DNA of 64,000 nucleotides from Natrinema salifodinae (GTDB lineage: Archaea > Halobacteriota > Halobacteria > Halobacteriales > Natrialbaceae): assembly GCF_900110455.1 (NCBI RefSeq), contig NZ_FOIS01000004.1, forward strand, positions 620,001 through 684,000. Direction: 5' to 3'. The position numbers were made by a program, and so were the translations under genes. This document shows positions 45,631 to 52,488 of this stretch, in pieces (positions within the stretch are counted from its first letter, which is position 1; every line of letters begins with the position of its first letter). The notes under the pieces were generated by a model, which saw only the letters and a program-made list of their open reading frames with translations, searched no databases and was not told where the DNA came from.

Positions 45631-47217
45631 CTACGCCTGGCCGTTCAGCGTGATGTCGTTGATGCCGATGATCCGCTCGTCGGCTTCGAGTTCCTCCTTC
45701 GCGTCCGCGGGGACGTCGCTGTCGACGTTGTAGACGGTCAGGGCCTCGCCGCCGATGGTTTCGCGGGCGTTGAACATCCCGGCGATGTTGACGTCGTAGT
45801 CGCCCATGACGCTGCCGATGAGACCGATGACGCCCGGCTCGTCGGTGTTGCGCGCGATGACCATCCGACCGTGGGGGATGGCGTCGACGCGGTAGCCGTC
45901 GATGCGGACGATCCGCGGGTCGTCGCCCGCGAACAGCGTCCCGTCGACCGAGACCTCGTTTTCGCCGTTGCTGACGGTCACCGAGATCAGGCTCTGGAAG
46001 TCCTCGGCCCGGCGGGTCTTGGACTCGGTGACGTCGACGCCCCGATCCTCGGCGATCTGGGGCGCGTTGACCGCGTTGACCTGCCATTCGAGAGGTTCGA
46101 AGACGCCCTTGAGCGCGGAGGCGGTGACGAACTCGACGTCCTCGTCGGCGATGTCGCCCTCGTAGACGACCTCGACGTCCTCGATGCGGCCGTCGAGCAG
46201 CTGGGCGGCGACCTTACCGGCGGTCTCGGCGATGTCGATGTACGGTTCGACGCGCGGGAACGCGCTCTCGTCGATCGACGGGGCGTTCAGGGCGTTGGCG
46301 ACCGGTTCGCCGACGATCGCGGCGTTGACCTGTTCAGCCGTCGAGGTGGCGACGTTCTCCTGGGCGGCCTCCGTCGAGGCGCCGAGGTGGGGCGTGACGA
46401 CGATCTCGTCGTGTTCGAGCAGCGGCGAGTCGTCCGCGAGCGGCTCCTCGGCGAAGACGTCGAGCGCCGCGCCGGCCAGCGTCCCGTCCTCGACTTTCGC
46501 CGCGAGGGCGTTCTCGTCGACGACGCCGCCGCGGGCGCAGTTGATGAGGTAGCCGTCGCCAAGCAGGTCGAGTTCGTCCTCGCTGATCAGCCCTTCCGTC
46601 TCGGGCGTCAGCGGCGTGTGGACGGTCAGGAAGTCAGCGCGTTCGAGGCTCGCCTCGAGATCGACGAGTTCGGCGCCGATGCGGTCGGCGCGCTCCTCGC
46701 TGATGTAGGGGTCGTAGGCGACGATGTTCATGCCCAGCGAGTCGAGCTTCTTGGCGACCTCCTGACCGACGCGGCCGAGGCCGACGACGCCCAGCGTCTT
46801 GCCGTTGAGTTCGGCGCCGAGGTAGTCGCTTTTCGCCCACTCGCCGTTCTTCAGGCGGATGTGGGCCTGCGGGATCGAGCGGGCGGCTGCGAACGTCATC
46901 GCGACGGTGTGCTCGGCGGCCGCGCGAACGTTCCCTTCGGGGGCGTTGGCGACGATAACGCCGTGGTCGGTCGCGGCATCGATGTCGATGTTGTCGACGC
47001 CGATCCCGGCGCGGCCGACGATGACCAGATCGTCGGCGGCCTCGAAGACCTCCTCGGTGACCTCGGTCCCGGAGCGGACGATCAGTCCGTTAGCGTCCGA
47101 GACTGCCCGGAGGAGGTCCTCTCCCTCGAGTTCGTAGCCCGTTTCGACCTCGTGGCCGGCGTCACGCAGTACGTCCAGACCCGCGTCGGCGATCGGATCC
47201 GTGACGAGAACCTTCAT
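45631..47217 (-). CDS. serA: D-3-phosphoglycerate dehydrogenase
   Basis: First step of serine synthesis from 3-phosphoglycerate. The 528-residue type-1 SerA has the NAD loop LGVVGLGRVGQEV, the catalytic RGGVVDE segment, the allosteric substrate-binding domain (about 320-450) and a C-terminal ACT domain (about 455-525) with RNTDEPGVIGLIG. TTTAC at 47241-47245 lies about 27 nt upstream of ATG 47217 for a leaderless transcript. SerB is at 51838, 4 kb away; serC is not seen. Confidence 0.96.
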   Translation of the reverse strand: MKVLVTDPIADAGLDVLRDAGHEVETGYELEGEDLLRAVSDANGLIVRSGTEVTEEVFEAADDLVIVGRAGIGVDNIDIDAATDHGVIVANAPEGNVRAAAEHTVAMTFAAARSIPQAHIRLKNGEWAKSDYLGAELNGKTLGVVGLGRVGQEVAKKLDSLGMNIVAYDPYISEERADRIGAELVDLEASLERADFLTVHTPLTPETEGLISEDELDLLGDGYLINCARGGVVDENALAAKVEDGTLAGAALDVFAEEPLADDSPLLEHDEIVVTPHLGASTEAAQENVATSTAEQVNAAIVGEPVANALNAPSIDESAFPRVEPYIDIAETAGKVAAQLLDGRIEDVEVVYEGDIADEDVEFVTASALKGVFEPLEWQVNAVNAPQIAEDRGVDVTESKTRRAEDFQSLISVTVSNGENEVSVDGTLFAGDDPRIVRIDGYRVDAIPHGRMVIARNTDEPGVIGLIGSVMGDYDVNIAGMFNARETIGGEALTVYNVDSDVPADAKEELEADERIIGINDITLNGQA

Positions 47218-48303
47218 GCGCGAAGCAACCGTGCGAAGAACGTAAACCCTTCCGTTGTCGATAGCGACGGCAAAAACTACCTCAAGGTACCTCGAAGAGC
47301 GCCGGCCGCTGCCGCCCGCACGAACCGTCGACGACGGATCCCTCGAACGGGAGGACGCCCCTCATCGTTACCACCTACCGTTGCCGACGTCGATTACACG
47401 AGGGGCCCGTAAAGTTGCTACCGTTTGCGAGATACTGCACTGTTGCCTTCGGGGACCGATACGCTACGTCGCCGATTACCGTTCCAAAGGGGATTTTTCC
47501 CGGTGACCGATGCCGTGACGACCGTTCCGGTTCCGTCCTGGGATCGATTTCGCGGGAACGACCGTTACCGCGGCTCAGCGGTGTGATAGACGACTGTTTC
47601 GAGCCGTCTTGCCCGCCGCCGGTGTGCGGCGAGTGCCTCGCTCGGAGCGCAGTTAACGCCGCGTCGGTCCGGACGGACGGGTAACCGATTGACGGCCGGC
47701 GTTCGCCTCTCAAAACGCGTGACTGTCGTCGGGACGCGCGTTCCGCTCGCGACGCATCTCGGCGCTATCATGTTCGGAACGTTCACCCGGAATGTGACGA
47801 TTTCCGTACCAATCATGCGTCGCCATCGGAACCGGTTCGGTCGGCGATTCGAGCGCAGAGTCGAGCCGAATCAGTCCGGTCGATCGTTCGCGATTACGGA
47901 TGCTTACAAACCGGTATCGCTCAGACATTCGTCGTGTACTTCCGCCTGGTATCTTGTAACTGGCTGTCCTCGCCCGATATGTAGCGTTCAGCCGCCGCAG
48001 CCATTGTTCCCTCTCTTCGACGACTCAATTCCCTGCTGTCGGCCGCGAACTGAATCGGTACGATTTCCGATATCAACAGGATCGCAACAGATCGACGCAA
48101 ACTGGCGTTTCCGAGGGCGCAATTGTCAGTGCTGTTGTCTCCCTGCAAACGGCGAATCGGTCGCAACGAACGTCTCTCGAACGCAATCACTCGCCGATAC
48201 TCCCAGTCTCATTAAATTAATTGATACGGAATGAAACGGTCGCCGGCGTTTATTCAACAACTCAGCCAAGGTCTCGACGCCCTGTTTGGGCGTGAGAGCA
48301 AAA
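47218..48303. other. 1.1-kb spacer without convincing genes
   Basis: Between divergent serA and the three-paralogue cluster. Short frames on both strands lack family features. GC is lower than in neighbours, especially from 47905 on. TTAAATTAAT at 48212-48221 is a strong TATA candidate for the paralogue operon, about 85 nt before its ATG, implying a leader of about 60 nt. A small hairpin (47567-47582, ACCGC...GCGGT) is present. The rest may be a regulatory or decayed region; I see no transposase or ncRNA fold I can name. Confidence 0.55.
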
Positions 48304-48879
48304 ATGAGCGAACAAGACACGACAGGCGACTCGAGACGGTCGTTCATGGCGAAGGGTGCCCTCGCGGCGGGCGCGCTGACGCTCGGAACGGGCGCCTTCG
48401 GGACCGCGACAGTCGGTGCACAGGATGATCAAGTAGCGGTCTTCGCGAACAATTTCTATCCCCAGGCGAGTTTCGACGTCCTCGCGCAGCTCGAGACGAG
48501 TACGACGGTCGAAATCCTACAGGTGGACGGAGAAACTGTTTCGGAGATCTCTCAGCCCGACGAGTGGGCCGGTCACATTATCCGATACGACATCGGCCAG
48601 GAATCGGGGATCACGTCGTTCCTCTTCGTGCGCGGCCAGAGCCTGAGCACCGATGACAGCGGGACGATCGGCGAGGACGCGTCGGTGCTGAACTCGGATC
48701 TGAACCTCCTCAGTGCGTCGATTGACAGCGGAACGACGGGCGATACCGACACGATCGAGGAGGACACGGACGACGATAACGGCGCCATCGAAGAGGACAC
48801 GGACGACAACGGCGTCCTCGAGGAGGAGACCGAGAATGAGACTGAGAACGAGACAACCGTGGAAACGGAGAGTGAATAA
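48304..48879 (+). CDS. Tat-exported member of a tandem paralogue family
   Basis: A 191-residue protein. It has a Tat signal (DSRRSFMAKGALAAG, R11-R12) without a lipobox, so it should be released outside. The mature core of about 85 residues is shared with the next two genes: SFDVLAQLETSTTVEILQ, ISQPDEWAGHIIRYD and a FLFVRG segment. The last about 50 residues are Asp/Glu/Thr-rich, partly repeated (EEDTDD), a likely halophilic linker or tail. I do not recognise the family. The next gene begins two nt after its stop. Confidence 0.82.
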   Translation: MSEQDTTGDSRRSFMAKGALAAGALTLGTGAFGTATVGAQDDQVAVFANNFYPQASFDVLAQLETSTTVEILQVDGETVSEISQPDEWAGHIIRYDIGQESGITSFLFVRGQSLSTDDSGTIGEDASVLNSDLNLLSASIDSGTTGDTDTIEEDTDDDNGAIEEDTDDNGVLEEETENETENETTVETESE

Positions 48880-48881
48880 CG

Positions 48882-49208
48882 ATGGTGCAAGATGAAGAAG
48901 GGCGAGTCCTGGCCTTCACGTACGATTACGAAGCCGAAGAGTCGTTCGACGTCGTCGCACAACTCGAGACGAGCACGACCGTGAACATCCTCCAGACCGC
49001 CGACGAGGAGACCGTTCCGGAGATCTCCCAACCGGACGAATACACCGGTCACATCATCCGATACCAGGTCGATGACGGCCCGGAGGGTCCCACGACCCTC
49101 CTGTTCGTCCGTGACGGGAGCATCGACTCCGGTGAGAGCGCGACGCTCGGCGAAGACGCGACGATGTTCAGTACGCGACTGAACCTCATCGCCACGACGC
49201 TCGAGTAG
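48882..49208 (+). CDS. Cytoplasmic short paralogue of the tandem family
   Basis: A 108-residue protein, essentially just the shared core: SFDVVAQLETSTTVNILQ, ISQPDEYTGHIIRY, LLFVRDGS and the ending TRLNLIATTLE. No signal peptide. It starts 2 nt after the preceding stop, so it is co-translated. Identity with the upstream mature core is high by eye, which suggests recent duplication. A single small beta-rich domain is likely. Function unknown. Confidence 0.8.
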   Translation: MVQDEEGRVLAFTYDYEAEESFDVVAQLETSTTVNILQTADEETVPEISQPDEYTGHIIRYQVDDGPEGPTTLLFVRDGSIDSGESATLGEDATMFSTRLNLIATTLE

Positions 49209-49309
49209 CGACCCGCCGTTCATTTTTAGCGTCGTCTCGGTCGCCGACCTCGTGTGCGGGTCCCATCGGTCCGGCCGTCACCGAAACCGCTACCAACGTA
49301 TCACCGACC

Positions 49310-49840
49310 ATGACCGCCGATTGGAGAACGAACGAGACGGACGAATCGGACGAGCGAGCAGACGCGTCCTCGACCGACACAGCGAACCAGCGGACGGTAG
49401 CCGCCAGCGCGGTCATCGTCGGATCGTCCGCGTCGATCGAGAAGCGCACCGACGCCACCGCTGGCGACGACCAGTCGTCAGCGGCGTCGACCGCGGAAGC
49501 GGAGGTCGAATCGAATTCCAGTCAACTGGTGTTGATCCCCATGACCGAGTACCGGCCGGGACTGACCCTGCGAGTCGTCGAGCGGCTTCCCGCGCCGATC
49601 GCCGTCCAACTCCTTCGGCTGCCGAACGACGAAACCGTTCCCGTCCTCGAACGTCCCGACGAGTACACAGGCTACGTCGCCCGCGCCGAGGTCGAGGAGG
49701 ACTTAGTCCGTTCGACGACGGTCGTCTTCACGCGCGAGTCGCTCGAAAGTGGAGCGTGCTACACGTTCGAGGCCGACGCGCAGGTGTTCAGTTCGCCGTT
49801 GCACCTGTTCCGGGCGACCGCCAGGCGCGTCGAGTGCTAG
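49310..49840 (+). CDS. Third paralogue with a long disordered N-terminus
   Basis: A 176-residue protein. Residues 1-75 are Ser/Thr/Ala/Asp-rich and disordered, and the remaining 100 residues match the shared core in weaker form: RLPNDETVPVLERPDEYTGY, VVFTRESLESGA and FSSPLHLFRATARR. It has no clear signal peptide. The distance of about 100 nt to the second paralogue may allow a separate promoter. It is the most diverged member, perhaps with a different partner. Confidence 0.72.
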   Translation: MTADWRTNETDESDERADASSTDTANQRTVAASAVIVGSSASIEKRTDATAGDDQSSAASTAEAEVESNSSQLVLIPMTEYRPGLTLRVVERLPAPIAVQLLRLPNDETVPVLERPDEYTGYVARAEVEEDLVRSTTVVFTRESLESGACYTFEADAQVFSSPLHLFRATARRVEC

Positions 49841-51692: not shown

Positions 51693-51837
51693 ATGTCCGG
51701 AAACGGAGGCGGGTGGATAATACGTTTCGGTCGATGCGGCTGTGCAATCAGCCGCCGACTGGCGGGCCGAGGCGACGACGCGGCTGCGCGGTGGGAAACC
51801 TGAACTGGTTTATCCGGGGACCATCAATCGGCGACCG

Positions 51838-52488
51838 ATGACAGTCGTCGCTTTCGACTTCGACGGGACGCTTTCGGACTCTGAGATGACGGTGTTGCTC
51901 GGCGACCGGCGCGGCGTCGCCGAGGACATGGACGAAATCACCGAGCGCGCGATGAACGACGAGATCGACTACGCCGAGAGCCTGCACAAGCGCGCAGCCC
52001 TGCTCGAGGCACTCCCCCGCGAAGACGCCGCGGCCGCCTTCGACGAGGTCGTCCTCCGCGAGGGCGCCGCCGACCTCATCGCGGAGTTGAACGAGGCCGG
52101 CATCACGACCGCGATCCTCACCGGCGGGTTCGAGCGCGGCGTCGCGGCCGCCTTAGAGCGCGAAGGCGTCTCCGTCGACCACATCGTCTCGAACCGTCTC
52201 CCGATGAACGACGACGGAACCGAACTGACCGGCGAGGTCGACGGCCCCCTCATCGAGGGGACCAAGGACGACGCGCTCGCGGCCCTGGCCGACGACGTCG
52301 GCGTCGACCTCGCCGAAACCGTCGCGGTCGGCGACGGCGCCAACGACCTCCCGATGCTCGAGGTCGCCGGCCTGGCGATCGGCTTCGATCCGAAGCCGGC
52401 GGTCGAGCCGCACTGTGACGTCGTCGTCACGTCGATGGCCGAGGCGCGGGAGACCCTGGTCGAGGAGGGGCACCTCACCGATCGCTGA
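51838..52488 (+). CDS. serB: Phosphoserine phosphatase
   Basis: Last step of serine synthesis. The 216-residue HAD-superfamily protein has motif I DFDGTLSDSE with the Asp nucleophile, motif II ILTGGFERG, a Lys in GTKDDAL and motif III VGDGANDLPML. The GDGANDLPML phrase favours SerB over other HAD-IB enzymes. ATG 51838 follows TGGTTTATCC (51807-51816) by about 27 nt. It completes serine synthesis with serA, 4 kb away on the other strand. Confidence 0.93.
   Translation: MTVVAFDFDGTLSDSEMTVLLGDRRGVAEDMDEITERAMNDEIDYAESLHKRAALLEALPREDAAAAFDEVVLREGAADLIAELNEAGITTAILTGGFERGVAAALEREGVSVDHIVSNRLPMNDDGTELTGEVDGPLIEGTKDDALAALADDVGVDLAETVAVGDGANDLPMLEVAGLAIGFDPKPAVEPHCDVVVTSMAEARETLVEEGHLTDR

Follow-up and report, generated by a model that had tools for sequence, protein, structure and literature searches.

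The window, a 64,000-nucleotide stretch of the Natrinema salifodinae genome, carries three adjacent genes whose products share one domain, alignable over ~97 residues in all three copies. Copy 1 (48304–48879, + strand) encodes a Tat signal (aa 1–39), a beta core (aa 44–139; 48433–48720) and a low-complexity, acidic tail with N-x-T sequons; its Tat motif reads SRRSFMAK, and its score with the TAT_signal_seq model, 13 bits, is below that model's cut-off of 16.7 bits. Copy 2 (48882–49208, +), whose ATG lies 2 nt beyond the stop of copy 1, is the bare core with neither signal nor tail, and copy 3 (49310–49840, +) joins a long front to a core (49529–49840) that is the most divergent of the paralogues and has the same predicted fold. 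Copies 1 and 2 are 52% identical over 102 residues (E 8e-32) and copies 2 and 3 are 36% identical over 98 residues (E 9e-17), both matches being far above chance, and the 4.27-Mb genome of the window holds exactly these three copies and no fourth. The preliminary description was accurate as to the layout: three neighbours with one core, the 2-nt spacing of the first two, and the Tat signal and acidic tail of copy 1 are all present. Its picture of copy 3 calls for revision. The front of this gene (49310–49528), described as disordered and taken to mark a separately designed ‘long’ form, is indeed modelled with low confidence, but it is not merely disordered, for it holds the remains of a Tat signal, ANQRTVAASAVIVGSSAS, where the Natribaculum orthologue (L083) has an intact STRRSFLNYDALAASALVIG; the front is a decayed signal plus a disordered linker. 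A serA-like phosphoglycerate dehydrogenase gene (45631–47217, −) and a serB-like phosphatase gene (51742–52488, +) flank the cluster on opposite strands, an arrangement that is not kept beside the family elsewhere.

A lineage-restricted domain family

The AlphaFold2 models of copy 2 (mean pLDDT 84, pTM 0.75) and copy 3 (pLDDT 85–97 in the core, 49–66 in the first ~70 residues) show the same order of elements, strand-strand-helix-five-strand, that is, seven strands and a helix, and a small beta-domain is thus predicted with confidence. Foldseek searches against the PDB and the viral models of BFVD returned nothing with E < 0.001, the nearest structures to copy 2 being small OB/SH3-like barrels, all with E > 0.1, and the modelled domain may possibly represent a new fold. 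An SH3b identity is not supported at the profile level: SH3_3 (PF08239) matches weakly in three of 42 family members (best E 0.0044), its score of 17.6 bits falls short of the 27-bit gathering threshold, and the matched stretch includes a helix of the predicted structure, whose seven strands compare with five in an SH3 barrel.

That the family was an unrecognised one, as had been proposed, is borne out, no match above threshold being found in Pfam, NCBIfam, PHROGs, PADLOC or PDB sequences; vWA-TerF (0.09) and Trichosurin (0.67) are examples of the sub-threshold matches. PADLOC likewise gave no known defence family that would indicate an anti-phage or toxin-immunity system, and none of the viral or phage records searched contains the family, so that a viral or phage origin found no support. 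Some members, including ones on Natrinema, Natribaculum and Haladaptatus plasmids, are labelled by PGAP as ‘calcium-binding protein’ or ‘twin-arginine translocation signal domain-containing protein’. Both names are annotations rather than tests; no calcium-binding model matches, and neither Pfam nor NCBIfam detects a calcium-binding (RTX-type) repeat or domain in the three window proteins.

A 42-member profile finds the family in 72 of 125 Natrialbaceae genomes, representing 22 of 29 genera, and in 65 of 391 genomes drawn from the class, all of them Natrialbaceae or Haladaptataceae (f17), to which it is confined among the genomes searched. It is missing from 53 of the 125 Natrialbaceae genomes, and some relatives carry one or two copies only. 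The order of an exported, tailed copy, a bare copy and a long copy is seen in 18 genomes from about 10 genera, including Halovivax and Saliphagus, by a hand count from the family tables; three further genomes share this order, but their copy 2 signal has decayed instead of being deleted. At the right end of a contig in another genome (L112; G083, contig C14), a copy 1/2 region that is damaged or incomplete, its core matching in frame only in part, precedes an intact copy 3. In the family tree, which is weakly resolved (175 rows on only 97 columns), separate groups are supported for copy 1 (16 rows, SH-aLRT 95), copy 2 (18 rows, 97) and copy 3 (21 rows, 98), and the bare copies of Saliphagus and G029 group with their own neighbours, a pattern that points to independent loss or to gene conversion. 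None of the flanking genes of the window recurs beside the cluster in relatives; the three genes therefore travel as a unit, and we rejected gene neighbours as a guide to function. Many Natrinema relatives have a different set of copies, adjoining housekeeping genes, purD and aconitase-like ones among them. We conclude that this is a real, lineage-restricted and undescribed family with a conserved operon logic.

Signal peptides and coupling of paired copies

Members fall into three signal states: an SRRxF-type Tat signal, a signal-like region without the RR pair (variants SRHS, SRYS, SSDS, TGQS, TEQS and SKRS) and no signal at all. RR was assigned by a text heuristic corrected by eye. Among the 32 coupled pairs, defined by a stop and a start no more than 15 nt apart, the first gene has RR in every case and the second is without it in 28; the figure becomes 29 once L149 is corrected, its GKRR lacking Tat context and hence not being scored as RR. 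No family-bearing genome is without an RR copy; in G083, the seeming exception, it is supplied by L111, which is nearly a duplicate of L087. With copy 3 left out, the tree calls for a minimum of 15 changes of RR state. In a distant clade (L140, L142, L145, L149 and L155), the tailed copy has lost RR and the tailless first copy keeps it, and because the tail roles are thus reversed, the rule follows pairing and not the type of tail. It is not without exceptions, since at least seven pairs bear two RR signals (L040, L043, L122, L126, L137, L148 and L152).

From copy 2 of the triple the signal is wholly missing, and the protein begins with MVQDD, MALQEDGN or MTQD, the N-terminus expected of mature copy 1; in the window, the corresponding start, MVQDEEGR, is the counterpart of mature copy 1 (QDDQ). 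In other lineages, the RR-less partner still has a region resembling a signal, together with an AxA-Q cleavage site. Such regions are more than debris, being under purifying selection: their dN/dS in three groups of Natrinema is 0.25, 0.24 and 0.29, similar to the 0.21–0.27 of the cores, all values being approximate, from pooled pairwise counts. The tails of at least 20 residues contain 86 N-x-S/T sequons versus 39.5 (sd 5.6) when shuffled, an excess that fits an extracellular, potentially glycosylated tail, although short-repeat expansion may account for some of it.

Copies 1 and 2 are also linked at the level of translation signals. The last codons of copy 1 contain a Shine-Dalgarno sequence for copy 2 (GGAGAGTGA; 48867–48875, +), which in most relatives reads GGAGGTGA just before the stop and in the distant clade is replaced at the same position by ACGGAGGTC. 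Together with the 2-nt spacing, this suggests that the two proteins are likely synthesized as a pair. The coupling is not universal, because many pairs in Natrinema are separated by about 600 nt and have a promoter for each gene.

A promoter motif shared with sugar dehydrogenase genes

Upstream of copy 1 lies a promoter motif composed of an upstream box and a TATA-like box, GAAACGGTCG-N6-TTTAT (48233–48253, +). The general form, GRAACRRTSG-N6-YTTAT, precedes copy 1 and the unlinked copies in relatives and is followed by a short hairpin and GTGAGAG. A model of the family promoter (R1) matches 48231–48303 with an E value of 8.5e-13, the next best match in the window's genome having an E value of 0.3. 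The pattern GRAACRRTSGNNNNNNYTTAT occurs 120 times in the 125 Natrialbaceae genomes versus three times in the reversed control (sums over a per-genome table); with a spacer of 7 instead of 6, the pattern has no matches. We found no published description of the motif in the literature searched.

About half of the sites lie at family genes, as expected, since the pattern was drawn from the family itself. By contrast, 34 of the 50 non-family sites examined lie upstream of a gene for a Tat-type cupredoxin-GSDH (glucose/sorbosone dehydrogenase); Pfam, run on two of these proteins, shows GSDH (PF07995) and plastocyanin (PF00127) domains. One such site is in the window's own genome (contig C1, 937268–937288; L163, L166), and others fall within the loci L173–L175, L182–L186, L191, L195–L197, L200, L205–L221 and L235–L243. 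These dehydrogenases likewise carry a Tat-type signal; they are otherwise unrelated to the family, to which only the promoter motif ties them. The dehydrogenase matches provide independent evidence that points to shared regulation, and the apparent link is the first functional lead for the family.

In one genus, the motif also precedes a gene for an HVO_0163-type winged-helix regulator (L207 in G073 and L240 in G075), a protein that could be the autoregulated regulator of the putative motif regulon. Other genes downstream of the motif encode SPW-repeat proteins (L180, L242), a TspO/MBR protein (L233) and, as judged by eye, an HtrA-like protease, a DsbA-like thioredoxin and a Cys-rich small protein (L230, L239 and L202, fragments with no Pfam match). 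These minor cases hint at a surface or redox theme; each is a single case and possibly due to chance.

The leader of copy 1 contains a hairpin, ACGCCC-TGTTT-GGGCGT (48277–48293, +; −19.1 kcal/mol, z −3.9), directly 5′ of the Shine-Dalgarno-like GTGAGAG (48292–48298). A stem of the CCCC/GGGG type can be drawn in all 78 collected family leaders, which were partly picked by a pattern that includes the stem. Hairpins clearly above shuffled controls are limited to the window and one Natrinema; the other folded leaders are weak, a covariation count on the MAFFT alignment carried no information because the alignment misplaces the stem registers, and Rfam has no match to the leader above its gathering score. 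We therefore do not claim a conserved leader RNA structure. Stem-loops also precede the Shine-Dalgarno sequence in leaders of the motif regulon and are long in type-B GSDH leaders (L182, L184 and L174).

Proposed joint Tat export and competing explanations

Our tentative reading, to which we give somewhat less than an even chance, is that the cluster is a single operon encoding a secreted system of several small, paralogous beta-domain proteins, from which a hetero-oligomer leaves the cell through Tat on a single signal, as a ‘hitchhiker’ complex. Copy 2, and perhaps copy 3, would fold onto copy 1 in the cytoplasm during co-translation, and the folded hetero-oligomer would cross the Tat translocase on the signal peptide of copy 1. 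Outside, the acidic or Gly/Asn-rich, potentially glycosylated tail of copy 1 might keep the complex soluble or attached to the surface, and the setting in which the complex acts would also be that of the cupredoxin-GSDH sugar dehydrogenases, which Tat exports and whose genes have the same promoter motif. Joint export is the simplest single account of the complementary signal loss, the translational coupling, a copy 2 that starts as the mature form would, and the preserved gene order. The broader proposition, that these are paralogues of a lineage-restricted extracellular domain with a fold not in the PDB, exported pre-assembled on a single RR signal that was repeatedly lost from either partner, is more doubtful still. 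Tat carries a large share of the secreted proteins of haloarchaea (PMC2910488, PMC2945643), and hitchhiking through this pathway is established for HybOC and PaoABC (PMC4273604, PMC10924467). As in the E. coli HybOC hydrogenase and PaoABC aldehyde oxidoreductase, an RR subunit is encoded here beside a partner without a functional Tat signal, the former in all of the coupled pairs and the latter in 28–29 of the 32. However, the partners in those enzymes are unrelated, cofactor-loaded subunits, whereas here they are paralogues of one small domain from which the signal was lost repeatedly, and export in trans is something we infer for the family.

Several observations count against joint export, namely the pairs with two RR signals, the incomplete coupling and the fact that a domain without a signal, taken alone, is most simply cytosolic. 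In the main rival, copies 2 and 3 would remain cytosolic and work with copy 1 there, either as a dedicated chaperone or holding partner before its export or as a cytosolic counterpart with a self-protecting, immunity-like role. Tat substrates must fold before export, and a copy 2 without a signal, a copy 3 with a decayed one and the coupling of copies 1 and 2, which are probably made together, all agree with this scenario. We nevertheless consider it rather unlikely, because RR-less partners elsewhere keep a selected signal-like region (dN/dS 0.24–0.29) and an AxA-Q site, unexpected in cytosolic proteins, the RR-less partner is the tailed one in one clade, and no defence or immunity family is matched in PADLOC. 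The preliminary description had placed copy 2 in the cytoplasm; co-export accords no less well with the repeated disappearance of the signal, which affects only copies paired with one that still bears it. The same selection on RR-less regions could instead mean that these copies leave on their own signals, through Sec or a relaxed, weak Tat, where the h-region is kept, the bare copy of the triple being a later, separate event with a role of its own. Signals with a single Arg, KR or no Arg, some retaining KK/KR plus the h-region, would suit this improbable alternative, but the h-regions are still Tat-like, rich in Ala and Gly, the bare copy is left unexplained, and in Haloferax RR-to-KK changes have served to block export by Tat (PMC2945643).

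Plain tandem duplication, with redundant extra copies under little specific constraint, would account for the relatives with one or two copies and for the genomes that lack the family. We regard it as very improbable given three supported orthogroups held in order across genera, the embedded Shine-Dalgarno sequence with its fixed 2-nt spacing, and a core dN/dS of about 0.2–0.3 in the unlinked pairs measured. The earlier suggestion that the copies are partners in one process rather than a matter of dosage is accordingly upheld insofar as partnership is favoured by the coupling, by a single promoter in common and by co-occurrence whatever the gene context; as for a specific role, nothing was found for adhesion, inhibition, immunity or a pore.

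What is new, if confirmed, is a known export arrangement in a version built from paralogues. Tat hitchhiking has so far been represented by a few enzyme complexes with unrelated partners, and a paralogous family with many inferred signal losses would show when a signal peptide becomes dispensable, and would do so in haloarchaea, which export chiefly through Tat. If joint export is true, the family would constitute a natural evolutionary record of archaeal Tat hitchhiking, tied by a promoter motif to secreted PQQ-type sugar dehydrogenases. The motif appears to define a small and specific candidate archaeal regulon, and its presence at the cupredoxin-GSDH genes may offer the first testable physiological setting for this undescribed family.
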